A stretch of 64,000 nt of DNA from the NCBI GenBank assembly GCA_938083085.1, contig CALLKX010000052.1, positions 62,001 through 126,000 on the forward strand, given 5' to 3'. Origin of the DNA: an uncultured bacterium (GTDB lineage Bacteria; Planctomycetota; UBA1135; GCA-002686595). Under the pieces are notes generated by a model. It had not been told where the DNA came from, ran no database searches, and saw nothing but the letters and a program-made list of their open reading frames with translations. The stretch's first letter is position 1, and each line of letters starts with the position of its first letter. The position numbers and the translations under genes were made by a program. Of this stretch, positions 21,454 through 28,785 are shown piece by piece.

Positions 21454-21530
21454 GCGCCCGTAGCTCAGCTGGATAGAGCGTTCGCCTCCGGAGCGAAAGG
21501 TCACAGGTTCGAATCCTGTCGGGCGTACCA
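21454..21530 (+). tRNA. tRNA-Arg (anticodon CCG), CCA encoded
   Basis: Cloverleaf: acceptor GCGCCCG/CGGGCGT, D-arm TAGCTCAGCTGGATAGAGC, anticodon arm TTCGC-CTCCGGA-GCGAA, T-arm CAGGTTCGAATCCTG, ends ACCA. Confidence 0.96.
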
Positions 21531-21602: not shown

Positions 21603-22898
21603 TCAGCGTGAGCCGCCGGGCGCGCCACCGGGAATGCCAGCGGGAATGCCAGCGGCGCCCGGCCGGAGCCGCTCGCTGACCTCCTCACGCTGAAGCAACT
21701 CCGCGGACACCTGCGCCGCGCCCGCCCGTTGCCCCGCCGCGTTCCAGTGGATGTCGGTCCCCCCCACCCACAGGCCAGCGCCGCCGTTCTCGAACACCGC
21801 AGTCAGGTCAGTGGAACGCCCACCGGCGCGAGAGACGGCGGCCACCAGCTCGCTCACAAGACGCCCCGACGCGTGGTCCGGGAAGCGACCTGGATCGACC
21901 TGGATCCCGAAGCCCGGGCAGGCGTCCACGGCCGACGGCACGACCACGAAGTGCAGCGGCACGCCGCGGGCCGCGGCCAACTCGACCATGGCGCGCAGGA
22001 CCTCGGTCATGAGCGCCAACTTCATCCGTACGCCAGGCGCGAGGGGCCTGATGGCGACGTCGGCGTCATACACGTCCTCGAACAGCGAGACGACCTCGAG
22101 GTCGTTCCTCACAAAGAACTCATCGGACTGAGCCGCGAGGGCCGCGAGGTACAGGTCCATGGTCCCGGCGGGAACCGAATCCACTGGCCGTCGATCCGGT
22201 GCCTCTCTCCAGAAGCGCACGAGGCGCTCGACGCCGAGGCCGCTCGCCCGCTCGGCGCGGCGCGCGAACTCGTCCGCGAGGCGAGCCCCAAGCCTCGGCT
22301 TGCAGCGGACCAGCGCGCCGTCTCCCCCGAGACGGAAGAGCTTGTTGCGCGCGAGGTCCCCCACGTCGTTGTGGGCACAGAGGACGCACACGATGAGGTC
22401 CGGCGCCACCTCGTCGATCTCGCGTTGCAGGAGCAGCAAAGACTGATCGGGGCCGTAGCCCGAGCGGCCCGCGTTGATCCCCTCAATAGCACAGCCCAGC
22501 TGCCGATCCAGGTCGTCCGCCAGCAGGCGAACGAAGGTGTTCTCCAGCGGCACGTTCTCGGCCATCACGAACGAGTCCCCAAGGACCAGCACGCGGCGGG
22601 CCCCTTGCCCCCCCTGCTCGCCGTCTCCACGAAACCCGTCGCCGCCGACCTCCACCAGCACCCGCGCGTGATCCCCCTCTCCCAGACGGGAGGGCTCCAT
22701 GGGCTGGATCCGGCGCGAACCGGGGATGGTGTCGTGGAGGAGCTCAGGATCGAGCTGATAGACCTGACCGAGCACCGGGAAGAAGCGGTCCACGGACAGC
22801 TCGATCCCCAGCAGGGTCAGCGCCACCGCGGTGACCGAGAGCAGGACGCGGCTCCCCAAGCGGCCCCCCTTGGCCGGACTCTCTTCGCCAGATATCAC
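21603..22898 (-). CDS. SGNH/GDSL hydrolase-like membrane-anchored protein
   Basis: N-terminal TM (VLLSVTAVALTLLGIELSVD), VLVLGDSFVMAENVPLENTFVRLLADDL, GRSGYGPDQSLLLL, C-terminal DIHWNAAGQRAGA (catalytic DxxH). Confidence 0.75.
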   Translation of the reverse strand: MISGEESPAKGGRLGSRVLLSVTAVALTLLGIELSVDRFFPVLGQVYQLDPELLHDTIPGSRRIQPMEPSRLGEGDHARVLVEVGGDGFRGDGEQGGQGARRVLVLGDSFVMAENVPLENTFVRLLADDLDRQLGCAIEGINAGRSGYGPDQSLLLLQREIDEVAPDLIVCVLCAHNDVGDLARNKLFRLGGDGALVRCKPRLGARLADEFARRAERASGLGVERLVRFWREAPDRRPVDSVPAGTMDLYLAALAAQSDEFFVRNDLEVVSLFEDVYDADVAIRPLAPGVRMKLALMTEVLRAMVELAAARGVPLHFVVVPSAVDACPGFGIQVDPGRFPDHASGRLVSELVAAVSRAGGRSTDLTAVFENGGAGLWVGGTDIHWNAAGQRAGAAQVSAELLQREEVSERLRPGAAGIPAGIPGGAPGGSR

Positions 22899-23830
22899 GC
22901 CGGGAACAGCTCCTCGACCCGCTGCGCCAGCTCGTCATCCAGGCGGACCTCGGCGGCCTGGAGGTTCGACTCGACCTGCGCTGTGGAGGTCGCGCCGGTG
23001 ATCACGCTGGTGATCGCGTCGTTCCGCAAGATCCAGGCGAGCGCGAGCTGCGCGGGGGAGAGCTCGGCCTCGTGGGCCAGCGCACTGAACGCCCGTAGGC
23101 GGTCTTGGACGTCACCCCCGAGCTTGTCGTCCAACCACCGGGTCTCTGCGCCCCGGCTGCCGGGCGGGACTCCGTTGTCGTACTTGCCGGTGAGCAGCCC
23201 GCCGGCGAGGGGGCTCCAGACCACGAGGCCCATGCCAAGGCGCCGGGCCGCCGGGAGGACGGAGGCCTCGATCCCGCGTTCGAGCAGGCTGTACTGCGGC
23301 TGCTCCACCAGCGGCGGATAGAACCCGCGCCGGTCGCACAGGTCGTGGGCGCCATCCAGTAACTCGGCCGGCCAAACGCTCGTGCCCCAGTAGTGCACCT
23401 TGCCGCGGTGCACCAGGTCGTCCATCGCTCGCACCGTCTCCTCGAGGGGCGTCTCCGGATCAGGGCGATGGCAGAAGTACAGGTCGAGGTAGTCCGTCCC
23501 GAGCCTGCGCAGGGAGGCCTCGCAGCTCTCGATGATGTGCTTGCGCGACAGGCCGCGCTGGTTGGGACCGTCGCCCATGCGGCCGAACACCTTGGAGGAG
23601 AGGACGAGGGAGGTCCGATCAAGCCCCTGAATAGCGGCCCCCGCGACCTCCTCCGCCGCGCCCGCCGAGTAGACATCGGCCAGGTCGATGAAGTTCACGC
23701 CGCCGTCTACCGCGCAGCGCAGGATCCTGGAGGAGTCCTCGGATCCGACGCTGCCGCCCAGGGTGAGCCACCCGCCGATCGAGACGCTGCTGATCTTGAG
23801 GCCGGTTCGGCCCATCTTCCGGTAGTTCAT
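22895..23830 (-). CDS. Aldo/keto reductase
   Basis: MNYRKMGRTGLKISSVSIGGWLTLGG...NFIDLADVYSAGAAEE...LDLYFCHRPDPETPLEETVRAMDDLVHRGKVHYWGTSVW: shaker beta-like AKR. Confidence 0.94.
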   Translation of the reverse strand: MNYRKMGRTGLKISSVSIGGWLTLGGSVGSEDSSRILRCAVDGGVNFIDLADVYSAGAAEEVAGAAIQGLDRTSLVLSSKVFGRMGDGPNQRGLSRKHIIESCEASLRRLGTDYLDLYFCHRPDPETPLEETVRAMDDLVHRGKVHYWGTSVWPAELLDGAHDLCDRRGFYPPLVEQPQYSLLERGIEASVLPAARRLGMGLVVWSPLAGGLLTGKYDNGVPPGSRGAETRWLDDKLGGDVQDRLRAFSALAHEAELSPAQLALAWILRNDAITSVITGATSTAQVESNLQAAEVRLDDELAQRVEELFPA

Positions 23831-23907
23831 CGCTCGCTCACCTGCCATGAAGACGGTACACGACGGGACGCCATGCGGGACGCTCCGTCGGCTAGGCTCA
23901 TGCCGCC

Positions 23908-24825
23908 GTGAGCGCCGATTCGATCGATCCTCTCCCCCACAAGGCCGACCCCGACACGCCCTCCATGGAGCGTATCCGGGCGGGGCACGAGGCCGTGCGC
24001 CGCGCCAACCGCCAGGAAGTCGTCGAGGACTACGTGGAGGCCATCGACGACCTGATCATGGATCGGGGTGAGGCGCGTGTCCGGGACCTGGCCACAGGGT
24101 TCGGGATCAGCCACGTCGCCGTGTGTTCGGTCATGGAGCGCCTGCGTCGCGACGGTCTCGTCAGCTCGGGTCAGCAGGAAGCCATCCAGTTGACCGAGGA
24201 GGGGCGGAGCATCGCCAGCCGATCCCGTGCGCGGCACGCGGCGGTCCTCGCCTTCCTCCTCGCCCTCGGGCTCCCCGAGGAGATCGCCGAGGCCGACGCC
24301 GAGGGGATGGAACATCACGTGGGGCCCGAGTCCCTCAGGGCCTTCGGTGAGTTCGTGGCCTCTCGAGCCACAGAGCAGCGGCCCCAACCGGCACCGGCCA
24401 GCCCCGGCCCCCTCGCTGCGGATGCGGCGCGGCGCTTCGCGCGGGTCCGAGCTGCCCACGCGAGCGAGCTCACCGAGGACTACGTGGAGGCCATCGACGA
24501 CATGATCCGGGAGCGGGGCGAGGCCCGCGTCGGGTGGCTGGCCGAGCGCTTCGGTGTGGCACAGGTGACCGTGACCCGGGTGGTCGCGAGGCTCCGCAGG
24601 CTCGGCCACGTGACCACCCCGCCCCGTCGACCGTTGGTGCTGTCTGAAGGGGGCCGGGCGCTCGCAGCGAGCTCCCGAGAGCGGCACCAGGTGGTGCTTC
24701 AGTTCCTGCTGTATCTCGGCGTCCCAGAGGAGGCGGCGGAGATCGACGCCGAGGGAGTCGAGCATCACGTGAGCGAGCGGACGCTGGCCCGCTTCGCCGA
24801 GCTGACCGGCCCTGCTGGGACCTAG
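23908..24825 (+). CDS. Tandem-fused MntR-like (DtxR family) metal-dependent transcriptional regulator
   Basis: Two consecutive MntR units: VVEDYVEAIDDLIMDRGEARVRDLATGFGISHVAVCSVMERLRRDGLV...RARHAAVLAFLLALGLPEEIAEADAEGMEHHV and LTEDYVEAIDDMIRERGEARVGWLAERFGVAQVTVTRVVARLRRLGHV...RERHQVVLQFLLYLGVPEEAAEIDAEGVEHHV. GTG start. Confidence 0.88.
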   Translation: MSADSIDPLPHKADPDTPSMERIRAGHEAVRRANRQEVVEDYVEAIDDLIMDRGEARVRDLATGFGISHVAVCSVMERLRRDGLVSSGQQEAIQLTEEGRSIASRSRARHAAVLAFLLALGLPEEIAEADAEGMEHHVGPESLRAFGEFVASRATEQRPQPAPASPGPLAADAARRFARVRAAHASELTEDYVEAIDDMIRERGEARVGWLAERFGVAQVTVTRVVARLRRLGHVTTPPRRPLVLSEGGRALAASSRERHQVVLQFLLYLGVPEEAAEIDAEGVEHHVSERTLARFAELTGPAGT

Positions 24826-24855: not shown

Positions 24856-24884
24856 CTCCAGACAGGCGGCCAGTTCTAATAGCA

Positions 24885-25877
24885 ATGGTTACAAAGCCCT
24901 GGCTACTCTCTTGGCAGATCGCGCTCCCGCGCGGCCCTTCCATGGACTGGCCCAAGCTCCTCCCCGCCCTCGCGGCGCTCGCCCTCTCGTGTTCCGGCAG
25001 CGCCGAGGCCTCCCTCAAGGAGGGCCCGAGCGTGGTCTGTACAACGGCGATGATCGGTGACCTCGCCCTGGAGATCGCCGGCAGTGACGCGAGCGTCGAG
25101 GTCCTCTTCGGCGTCGACATGGACCCGCACCTGTTCCGCCCGACAAGGGACGACGTGAAGCTGCTCATGGCCGCTGACCTGGTCCTCTACAACGGCCTGC
25201 ACCTCGAGGGCTACCTCACCGATGCGCTGGAGCGGGTGGGCGATTCCGGCGTGGAGGTCATCCCCGTCGCCGAGCGGGTCCTGCTTGAGAGCGAGCTGAT
25301 CGAGAGCGGTCCGGCCCCCGACCCCCACGTGTGGATGGACGCCTCCGTCTGGTCGAGAGTGCCGGCGCTGATCGCGGATGCCCTGGGTCAACAGCTCCCC
25401 TCGGAGCGCCCCGCGTTCACGGCCCGAGCGGCGGCCATCGAAGCCCGGCTGCTCGCTGCGGACGAGGACTACCGGCGGTCCTTCTCCGCCCTGGCTCCGG
25501 ACCGTCGGGTGCTCCTCACCGCCCATGACGCCTTCCGCTACTTCGGCCGCCGCTACGGCCTCGAGGTCCGCGGGATCCAGGGCGTCTCGACGACGAGCGA
25601 GGCCTCCCTTAGCACGATCGAGGAGCTCGTCAACCTCGTGGTCCAGCGCGACATCCCCGCGGTCTTCTTCGAGTCCACCGTCTCCGAACGGAACGTGAAG
25701 GCCCTGCTCGAGGGCGCCAAGGCCCGCGGCCACGACCTCCAGGTCGGCGGGGTCCTGCACGCCGATGCACCGGGCGCCGCGGCCACCTACGAGGGGATGC
25801 TCGAGTCCAACGCCGCGACCATCCTCACCGCTCTGGGCGCCGGCCGCGAGGCAGCGGCGGGAGCAGACGTCCGATGA
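24885..25877 (+). CDS. Metal (Mn/Zn) ABC transporter substrate-binding protein (TroA/ZnuA family)
   Basis: VVCTTAMIGDLALEIAGSDASVEVLFGVDMDPHLFRPTRDDVKLLMAADLVLYNGLHLEG; DPHVWMD; LTAHDAFRYFGRRYGLEVRGIQGVSTTSEAS. Alternative start ATG 24940 (lipobox-like LALSCSG). Confidence 0.92.
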   Translation: MVTKPWLLSWQIALPRGPSMDWPKLLPALAALALSCSGSAEASLKEGPSVVCTTAMIGDLALEIAGSDASVEVLFGVDMDPHLFRPTRDDVKLLMAADLVLYNGLHLEGYLTDALERVGDSGVEVIPVAERVLLESELIESGPAPDPHVWMDASVWSRVPALIADALGQQLPSERPAFTARAAAIEARLLAADEDYRRSFSALAPDRRVLLTAHDAFRYFGRRYGLEVRGIQGVSTTSEASLSTIEELVNLVVQRDIPAVFFESTVSERNVKALLEGAKARGHDLQVGGVLHADAPGAAATYEGMLESNAATILTALGAGREAAAGADVR

Positions 25878-26650
25878 TCCTCCGCAGCCGCGAAGCTCTG
25901 GCCCCCCTGGCCCTGCGCTCCCTCTCCGTCGGCTACCGCGGTGTCCCGGCCCTGTGGGACGTGTCCTGGGAGGCCCGTGAAGGAGCCCTGACGGCGATCG
26001 TCGGCCCGAATGGAGCCGGGAAGTCAACGCTCCTCAACGCCGCCATCGGCGCGCTCCGCCCGCTCGCCGGCGAGACGTTCTTCTGGGGGCAATCCTTCGC
26101 CGACGCTCGCTCGCGGGTCGCCTACGTGCCGCAGCGCGAGTCGGTGGACTGGGACTTCCCCGTGACCGCGCTTGAGGTCGTCGAGATGGGCGCCGCTCGA
26201 AGGTTCGACTGGCTGCTCCCGGCCTGGGCGCGCCGCGGCGAGGCCCATCGCAGGCACCGGATGGAGGCTCACAGCTGCCTGGACGAGCTCGGACTCGGCG
26301 CGTTCGCCGACCGCCCGATCGGACAGCTCTCCGGCGGCCAACAACAGCGGGTGTTCCTCGCCCGCGCGCTCGCTCAGCAGGCGGACCTGCTGCTGCTCGA
26401 CGAGCCCTTCGCCGGGGTGGACGCCGAGACCGAGGACGCACTGTTTCAACGCCTGCGCCGGCTCTGCTCCGAAGGGACCACCGTCGTCGCCGTGCACCAC
26501 GACCTAGACACCGCGCGGTCGCGCTTCGACGACGCCCTGCTGCTGGCCGGCTCGGTGGTCGCCACCGGGCCCGCCCGCGAGGCGCTCTCCGAGGACAACG
26601 TCCGCCGAGCCTTCGCGCCCACCAGCCCGGCCGCGCACCAGCTCGCCTGA
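25874..26650 (+). CDS. Metal ABC transporter ATP-binding protein
   Basis: VGPNGAGKSTLLNA (Walker A), AYVPQRESVDWDFPVT, LSGGQQQRVFLARALAQQADLLLLDEPFAGVD. Confidence 0.94.
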   Translation: MILRSREALAPLALRSLSVGYRGVPALWDVSWEAREGALTAIVGPNGAGKSTLLNAAIGALRPLAGETFFWGQSFADARSRVAYVPQRESVDWDFPVTALEVVEMGAARRFDWLLPAWARRGEAHRRHRMEAHSCLDELGLGAFADRPIGQLSGGQQQRVFLARALAQQADLLLLDEPFAGVDAETEDALFQRLRRLCSEGTTVVAVHHDLDTARSRFDDALLLAGSVVATGPAREALSEDNVRRAFAPTSPAAHQLA

Positions 26651-26668: not shown

Positions 26669-27817
26669 ATGCTCGACGTTCCGCGCTGGCCCCTCGCGTC
26701 GCTCGCCAACGCCGCCATGACGGACGGAACGGCGGCGGGTCAGGATGGAGCGGCCCTGCTCCAGGCATGGGCGCGAGTGCTCACCTTCGGCGGCGGCTAC
26801 AACACCAACGTCGTGCTGATGGGCACGATCCTTCTCGGCATCAGCGCCGGTGCCGTCGGCTCCTTCGCAATGCTCAAGGGCCGGGCCCTGGTGGCCGATG
26901 CGATCAGCCACGCGTCGCTGGTTGGCGTCGCGCTCGCGTTCTTGCTGCACGCCGCCCTGGGTCAAGAGGAGCGGAGCATGCCCCTGCTCATGCTGGGGGC
27001 GGCGCTCTCCGGTGCCTGCGCGGTGGCCTCCATTGAGTGGATCGCCAGGAACACGCGCCTGAGCCCCGAGACAGCGGTCGCGACCATCTCCAGCGCATCG
27101 TTCGGCGCAGGGATCGTCGCGCTCTCGGCCACAAGGCGTGTGAGCGGCGCCGACCGCGCGGGGCTGGACGAGCTCATCTTCGGCTCGACCGCCTCGATGA
27201 CCAGCGCGGACGCAGCCCTGATGGCGATCCTCGCCACTACGGCACTGGGCGCGACGCTCGCCCTCTACAAGGTCCTCACCGCGGTGGCCTTCAATGAGCG
27301 CTTCGCCCGCTCGAGGGGATTGCCGGTGCAGCTCCTGGATGCGGTCCTCGCGGCCCTCGTCGGCGCCGTGGCGATGGCGGGGCTCCAGGCCGTGGGCATG
27401 CTCCTCGTCGCCGCGCTCCTCGTGGCCCCCGCGGCCACCGCCCGCCTGTGGACCACCCGCGTGGCCCCCATGGTCGTCGTCGCCGCCGCGGCTGGCGCTG
27501 GCGCCGCCTGGGTCGGCGCCTCCATCTCCGCGGTGACGCCGAGCGCGCCCGCCGGCCCGCTGATCATCCTCTCCGCCGCAGCGACCTTCCTGGTGAGCCT
27601 GCTGGTCGCGCCGGAGCGCGGCGTCCTCTCTGGCTGGCTCCGTCACCGCAGGCTGGCGGCCGCCGCACGGCGCGCCGCGGCGGAGGCGGCCTCGGGCGCC
27701 ACCTCTCCGGCCCCCAGTTCTACGGCTCCCATTTCCACGGGTCCCAGCTCTACGGCTCCCATTTCTACGGCTCCCATTTCTACGGGCGCCCCGCACACCG
27801 GGCCGGGTCGCACGTGA
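26669..27817 (+). CDS. Metal ABC transporter permease (ABC-3 family), annotated frame with Pro/Ser/Thr repeat tail
   Basis: GAVGSFAMLKGRALVADAISHASLVGVALAFLL...SRGLPVQLLDAVLAALVGAVAMAGLQAVGMLLVAALLVAPAATARLWT. Confidence 0.9.
   Translation: MLDVPRWPLASLANAAMTDGTAAGQDGAALLQAWARVLTFGGGYNTNVVLMGTILLGISAGAVGSFAMLKGRALVADAISHASLVGVALAFLLHAALGQEERSMPLLMLGAALSGACAVASIEWIARNTRLSPETAVATISSASFGAGIVALSATRRVSGADRAGLDELIFGSTASMTSADAALMAILATTALGATLALYKVLTAVAFNERFARSRGLPVQLLDAVLAALVGAVAMAGLQAVGMLLVAALLVAPAATARLWTTRVAPMVVVAAAAGAGAAWVGASISAVTPSAPAGPLIILSAAATFLVSLLVAPERGVLSGWLRHRRLAAAARRAAAEAASGATSPAPSSTAPISTGPSSTAPISTAPISTGAPHTGPGRT
27711..27790 (+). repeat. 15-bp tandem repeat (about 5 copies of CCCATTTCTACGGCT)
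   Basis: cccagttctacggct/cccatttccacgggt/cccagctctacggct/cccatttctacggct/cccatttctacgggc. Encodes PSSTA/PISTG in frame 1 and SHFYG-type units in frame 2. Confidence 0.92.
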
Positions 27818-28785
27818 TCCCTCCCGACGCAGCGCCGACGGGGGCGATCCCCGCTGGACTCCACGAGTTCATGACCCTCGACCTGATGCCCATGGTCGCG
27901 GTCACCGCGTCCGCGGCCACGCTGGCCCTGCTCGGCTCATTCCTGGTCCTCCGTCGACAGGCGATGCTGGGGGACGCGATGGCACACTCCGTGCTGCCTG
28001 GCCTGGTCGTCGCGTTCCTGCTCACCGGCTCCCGGGCCGCGGGTCCGATGTTCCTCGGCGCCGCCGCTGCCGCCGCGCTCTCCGGCGCCGCGATCGGCGC
28101 GATCATCCGCTACGGGCGGGTGGAGCGGAGCGCGGCCATCGGTCTCGTGTATACGACCATGTTCGCGCTCGGTGTCCTGCTCCTCGAGCTCAACGGCGGC
28201 GCCAACGTGGACCTCGACGTGGACTGCGTCCTGAGCGGCCAGCTGGAGCTGATGTTCTGGAACGCGCCAACCACCTGGGCCGAGGTCCTCGAAGGGCCAA
28301 GCCTGGCCGGGCTGCCCCCTCAGCCGCTGCGGCTCGTCGGGCTCCTCGCGGCCTCCTGCACGGCGGTGGTTGCGGGCTGGCCACTCCTGCGCGCCGTGGC
28401 GTTCGATGCCCCCTTTGCGCGCTCCCGCGGCCTCCATCCATCCGCGGCCTCCGCGGGCTTGATGACGCTCACGATCCTCGCGATCGTGCTGAGCTTCGAC
28501 GCCGTCGGCTCGATCCTCGCCATCGCCCTGCTCACCTGCCCCCCTGCCACGGCGAGGCTCCTCACCGACCGCATGGGCCCCTACGTGCTGCTCTCCGTGG
28601 GCCTCGGCGCCGCAGCTGGCCTCCTCGGATACCTGCTCGCCACGCGAGCGGCGCCCCTGCTGCTGGGCGGCTCGGTGGACGCGAGCGGCACGGTCGCCGC
28701 GCTCTCTGGGCTCGGGCTCCTCGCGGCCGCTGCTTGCACGGCGAGGGCGCGGCGTCTTCCGGAGTCGCAGGGCGCTGACCTATGA
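27814..28785 (+). CDS. Metal ABC transporter permease (ABC-3 family), second subunit
   Basis: LGSFLVLRRQAMLGDAMAHSVLPGLVVAFLL...SRGLHPSAASAGLMTLTILAIVLSFDAVGSILAIALLTCPPATARLL. GTG start 27814 overlapping upstream stop (GTGA); alternative ATG 27871. Confidence 0.9.
   Translation: MIPPDAAPTGAIPAGLHEFMTLDLMPMVAVTASAATLALLGSFLVLRRQAMLGDAMAHSVLPGLVVAFLLTGSRAAGPMFLGAAAAAALSGAAIGAIIRYGRVERSAAIGLVYTTMFALGVLLLELNGGANVDLDVDCVLSGQLELMFWNAPTTWAEVLEGPSLAGLPPQPLRLVGLLAASCTAVVAGWPLLRAVAFDAPFARSRGLHPSAASAGLMTLTILAIVLSFDAVGSILAIALLTCPPATARLLTDRMGPYVLLSVGLGAAAGLLGYLLATRAAPLLLGGSVDASGTVAALSGLGLLAAAACTARARRLPESQGADL

Follow-up and report, generated by a model that had tools for sequence, protein, structure and literature searches.

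The gene at positions 23908-24825 of the analysed stretch of planctomycete DNA (64,000 nucleotides, hereafter the window) encodes what we regard as a natural single-chain MntR, which departs from the usual form of its family. The explanation that we consider probable is that a fusion produced a single-chain MntR acting on one site, and that the two halves and the operator diverged together in the window's clade. New here is a candidate operator, recognised by sequence conservation at 24879-24892, directly upstream of a metal transporter.

Two MntR units in one reading frame

The reading frame is uninterrupted and free of frameshifts, and the 305-aa chain consists of two complete MntR units, as an earlier note on this DNA had claimed. 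They are of the E. coli type, ~125-128 residues each, and are joined by a linker of ~20. NF008273, the NCBIfam model for E. coli-type MntR, matches two stretches of the chain (307.8 bits vs a cut-off of 153), and in a profile search of the genome the separate halves scored 163 and 157 bits, both above the cut-off for a single MntR. The Pfam domains Fe_dep_repr_C and Fe_dep_repress were likewise each found twice. The features of the gene are as follows.

23908-24825, plus strand: tandem two-unit MntR gene, 305 aa, GTG start (open reading frame; NF008273 twice; 9/9 genus genomes)
23989-24372, plus strand: N-terminal MntR unit, residues ~28-155 (Pfam, metal ligands)
24109-24150, plus strand: N-unit recognition helix, S68 H69 V70 A71 V72 C73 S74 (alignment; contacts from PMC11275975)
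24373-24432, plus strand: linker, residues ~156-175, of low confidence and weak constraint (AF2, in-frame start check, dN/dS)
24433-24807, plus strand: C-terminal MntR unit, residues ~176-300 (Pfam, metal ligands)
24559-24600, plus strand: C-unit recognition helix, A218 Q219 V220 T221 V222 T223 R224 (alignment)

Separate translation of the C half was considered and rejected, there being no in-frame start codon from codon 150 to 193. No DtxR-family gene other than the tandem MntR was found in the window's genome (assembly 89.65% complete).

The six Mn ligands of B. subtilis MntR (D8, E11, H77, E99, E102 and H103) align in both halves, as D41/E44/H110/E132/E135/H136 in the N half and D191/E194/H260/E282/E285/H286 in the C half. 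That both halves keep the MntR ligands, as had been proposed, is therefore borne out; the further suggestion of non-equivalent metal sites is not, since with all six ligands present in either half the sites look equivalent. The set is complete in both halves of every tandem protein with the exception of one broken C half. In that locus (L011, G001:C7:27833-27961) the C half is frameshifted, and the contig soon ends in adapter-looking sequence.

Pfam and the AF2 helices show a wHTH and a metal/dimer domain, and the SH3-like domain that DtxR/IdeR carry is missing. At the positions of the Fe-type signature of DtxR/IdeR, Met10 and Cys102, the protein has Asp and Glu, and there is no third domain. 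By these sequence features the tandem regulator is of the Mn type, and Mn would be its signal. A typical MntR is a stand-alone homodimer of ~140-155-aa chains; here two units share one 305-aa chain, and we therefore class the protein as an MntR variant.

The fusion is confined to one genus among the loci compared

The earlier note had proposed a search for the two-unit architecture in related genomes. We found the two-unit gene in 9/9 genus genomes examined, including the complete chromosome CP036434 of Planctomycetes bacterium Poly30 (which we take to be Saltatorellus ferox), and no match at all in the other 28 genomes sampled from the same family. Across 395 planctomycete genomes, 158 matched the MntR model at E<=1e-15, 32 above the cut-off, and no adjacent one-frame two-unit matches lay outside the genus among the matches listed. 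Six of the best 80 loci in a collection of 85,462 species were tandem, all from this genus, and the other 74 were single-unit; an independent fusion may exist elsewhere among matches weaker than these 80. In the open-access literature, of which coverage was incomplete, no paper on a fused MntR was found.

A tree of 114 units places the N halves in one group and the C halves in another (support 100/97), within the planctomycete MntRs. Because the N halves and the C halves each group together, a single duplication older than the genus is indicated; on this tree the halves split before the genus radiated and the fusion is one event. Transfer of the tandem units from Pseudomonadota is not favoured, both halves lying among planctomycete MntRs in a tree whose deep forks are weak.

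The earlier note had pointed to an identical DNA block at 24025 and 24475, and we confirmed this 26-nt identity, exactly 450 bp apart. The block sits inside a 100-nt stretch with 75% identity between the halves, which are 51% identical at the protein level. Gene conversion or a recent duplication was considered as its cause and rejected. The encoded EDYVEAI is invariant, and in eight sister species the block's 24 nt agree between halves at 19-23 positions, differing at synonymous sites, so that the block carries no weight for a recent duplication. Judged from these alignments, the identity stems from invariant residues combined with a preference for GC-rich codons.

Purifying selection is strong in both halves (dN/dS mostly 0.02-0.17; wHTH mostly 0.04-0.15) and much weaker in the linker. 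Within the window's clade, dN/dS is ~0.08-0.13 for the N unit and ~0.02-0.13 for the C unit.

The tandem MntR heads a metal transporter operon

The tandem MntR is the first gene of a conserved operon for a TroA-type metal ABC transporter, with the following features around it.

22895-23848, minus strand: divergent aldo/keto reductase, a conserved neighbour (PF00248; same place in 6/6 same-genus contigs compared)
24879-24892, plus strand: candidate asymmetric operator ATAGC-AATG-GTTAC before the transporter genes (conserved in five species)
24942-25877, plus strand: TroA/ZnuA-type metal-binding lipoprotein (PF01297; TroA 1toa, E=6e-63; start conserved)
25874-26650, plus strand: metal ABC transporter ATPase (PF00005; manganese-type model best, yet below cut-off)
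26669-27817, plus strand: ABC-3 metal permease 1 (PF00950)
27814-28785, plus strand: ABC-3 metal permease 2, overlapping GTGA start (PF00950; junction read)

The order of aldo/keto reductase (divergent), tandem MntR, substrate-binding protein, ATPase and two ABC-3 permeases is kept in all genus contigs long enough to show it. Three Phycisphaerales loci have the same MntR-transporter order, but with a single MntR. The longest reading frame of the substrate-binding protein (24885-25877) would begin within the candidate operator; the start conserved among the species is the ATG at 24942, followed by a lipoprotein-like signal, LSCSGS. Mn is not certain as the metal transported because this protein is closest to TroA (Zn/Mn), and the substrate may be Mn, Zn or Fe. 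No Mn riboswitch was found in the window. The same genome holds an Nramp (MntH-like) gene (G000:C3:23736-24770) with no ATAGC-N4-GTTAC box nearby. A tRNA-Arg (ccg) lies at 21454-21530 of the window, where long reading frames on both strands are spurious.

A conserved asymmetric block accompanies unlike helices

Alignment across species of the DNA that separates the MntR gene from the transporter genes revealed one conserved block. In the window it is the candidate operator, which ends 49 bp before the likely start of the substrate-binding protein; no sigma-70-like promoter or terminator was found beside it. The block reads ATAGC-AAYG-GTTAC in 5/5 species of the window's clade, and the 14-mer occurs exactly once per genome. 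At the same place the other four species carry a symmetric GTAGC-N4-GCTAC, with spacers CAAG, CTAT, CCAT and, in the fourth (G001), ATTG. Relative to the MntR box RTAGC-N4-GCTAY, the site before the transporter is thus symmetric in four species and modified to ATAGC-N4-GTTAC in five. The canonical long E. coli-type box AACATAGCNNNNGCTATGTT had no match in the window. A wider regulon was also sought and rejected, ATAGC-N4-GTTAC occurring once per genome in the five genomes and hence offering no second target.

The box type changes together with the recognition helices. In the four species with symmetric boxes the helices of both halves are nearly identical, SHVTVSR (SHATVSR in one half), whereas the five with the asymmetric box have unlike helices. 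The earlier note, which had seen that the helix-turn-helix halves differ, guessed at an asymmetric operator, and this covariation in sequence lends the guess independent support. Its overall interpretation thus stands as regards the covalent fusion and is strengthened as regards the operator, the non-equivalent metal sites being the part that falls away.

In the B. subtilis MntR-DNA structure, His35, Pro36, Ser37 and Lys41 lie at base pairs 4 to 7, with Lys41 at 4/5 (PMC11275975). The N half keeps H69 and has a serine (S74) where Lys41 aligns, a position normally K or R; the C half has Q219 and keeps an arginine, R224. Where a single MntR has H as its second helix residue, the neighbouring box is GTAGC-N4-GCTAC; those of Halomonadaceae with Q adjoin TTAGC-N4-GCTAA, and E. 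coli K-12 MntR, also with Q, has ATAGC-N4-GCTAT before mntH and mntS. Over the half-sites of single MntRs, H goes with an outer G in 48/52 and Q with A/T in 55/56, counts that ignore phylogeny and largely follow clades. Read from outside in, one half-site of the window's box is ATAGC (A outside, G at position 4) and the other GTAAC (G outside, A at position 4); one half-site has changed at base pair 4, and the N half has lost the basic K41 equivalent. On the H/G and Q/A-T pattern we predict that ATAGC is read by the C half, with its Q219 and R224, and GTAAC by the N half, with H69 and S74. The lost basic residue leads to the same pairing, and exchanging the half-sites would contradict both arguments.

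These matches raise the prospect of a natural single-chain pseudo-heterodimer in the DtxR superfamily, with half-specific reading of DNA (N on GTAAC, C on ATAGC) and a co-evolved, directional, non-palindromic operator, a proposal for and against which we find the balance even. An unlikely alternative, although one to be weighed seriously, is a single-chain dimer without functional asymmetry, in which the helix and operator differences are near-neutral drift and the box is merely an imperfect palindrome. Imperfect boxes do occur beside ordinary MntR homodimers with like helices (11/56 sites), among them boxes with a GTTAA half in Billgrantia and with a GCTAA half in Phycisphaerales, and because the change of helix and operator happened once, the five species amount to one evolutionary event. 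Against drift, five species strongly diverged at silent sites (pS up to ~0.6) have kept both helices and the 14-mer, and the changes at positions 7 and 4 match the altered residues.

It is rather improbable that strong DNA reading is confined to the C half, with the N half as a tethered partner for dimerisation and metal sensing and GTTAC as a decayed half-site. The N helix SHVAVCS and wing SSGQQEA do lack the basic residues of relatives, with the K41-equivalent R replaced by S and the wing arginine lost. Yet the wHTH of the N unit is among the most constrained parts of the protein (dN/dS ~0.04 in 3/4 pairs of the window's clade), and the GTTAC half is identical in 5/5 species.

Modelled packing of the two halves

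The earlier note had also suggested modelling the chain for intramolecular pairing. AF2 gave the two-unit chain a pTM of 0.79 for the window's protein and 0.82 for a different member of the genus (L008), with eight and seven genus sequences as input, respectively. Freely tumbling units should give a clearly lower pTM, and these values hence suggest a fixed packing, with the two halves in contact within one chain. The best Foldseek match of the model was E. coli MntR 2h09 over ~115 aligned columns, the top matches being single MntR chains. Together with the single 14-bp, dimer-sized site at each promoter, the modelled packing makes a built-in dimer likely. The DtxR/MntR fold dimerises well, and tandem chains might instead pair between molecules (N-N, C-C or swapped) as ordinary or tetrameric repressors; with a lone dimer-sized site, no second box in five genomes and pTM values that suggest packing within the chain, we think this a poor prospect. 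An assembly or gene-calling artefact, conceivable for draft metagenomes, is refuted by independent assemblies, as the same architecture recurs in nine genomes, one of them a complete chromosome, and the window's gene has no frameshift.

Discussion

In the model that we favour, of a fused MntR whose halves and operator diverged together, a planctomycete mntR heading a Tro/Sit-type metal ABC transporter operon would have undergone tandem duplication and a single fusion ahead of the radiation of the genus. The same chain would then hold the two subunits that normally come together as a Mn-activated dimer. In ample Mn, both would bind the metal, pair within the chain, as the pTM values suggest, and close on one 14-bp site shortly before the gene for the substrate-binding protein, and metal uptake would be repressed. 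We infer repression of the transporter by the tandem MntR on this basis. GTAGC would at first have been the half-site of both units; later, in the window's clade, units and operator would have diverged together, the C unit moving to ATAGC and the N unit to GTAAC.

The symmetry of most bacterial repressors follows from their being homodimers. Like tandem MntR, engineered single-chain repressors and the TATA-binding protein have two repeats in one chain that form a pseudo-symmetric reader of DNA, the former being laboratory constructs and the latter of unrelated fold.

The closest solved relative of the tandem protein is E. coli MntR (PDB 2h09; NF008273; E=1e-30), which shares its ligands, wHTH and metal/dimer domain. 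The E. coli protein is one 155-aa unit that forms a homodimer on symmetric boxes, whereas tandem MntR has two unequal fused units and an asymmetric box. B. subtilis MntR (PDB 2f5c, 9c4c) has the same six ligands; unlike tandem MntR it is a homodimer, has a different box and also activates efflux genes via four cooperative sites. The Treponema TroR-TroABCD system resembles our locus in combining a metal-dependent DtxR-family repressor with a TroA-type ABC importer (TroR: PMC2628430), and T. pallidum TroA is the closest solved relative of the window's substrate-binding protein. TroR, however, is a single unit and last in its operon (troABCDR), whereas tandem MntR is first.

The interest lies chiefly in a dissected evolutionary series. 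Fusion would have freed the MntR halves to diverge, and a living series appears to run from a single MntR (Phycisphaerales), through a fused protein with like halves and a palindrome (four species), to a fused protein with unlike halves and an asymmetric site (five species). If this is true, the four like-helix relatives preserve an intermediate state, fused yet still symmetric with a symmetric box, and the escape of repressors from palindromic operators becomes directly testable. Tandem MntR could also be a natural template for single-chain metal sensors.

Two further groups of MntR loci were observed among the single-unit relatives. Three from Billgrantia/Halomonas (L076, L091 and L093), with the helix SQATVSK, have an imperfect TTAGC-N4-GTTAA and offer a natural control, an asymmetric operator without protein asymmetry. 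SAR116-type MntRs with the helix TSPTVNA (12 loci: L021, L022, L026, L039, L050-L052, L056, L058, L068, L081 and L082) have no RTAGC-N4-GCTAY box near the gene, and an upstream AAAATTTTGATGTGGCTAAATTT-like block there may be a different box.
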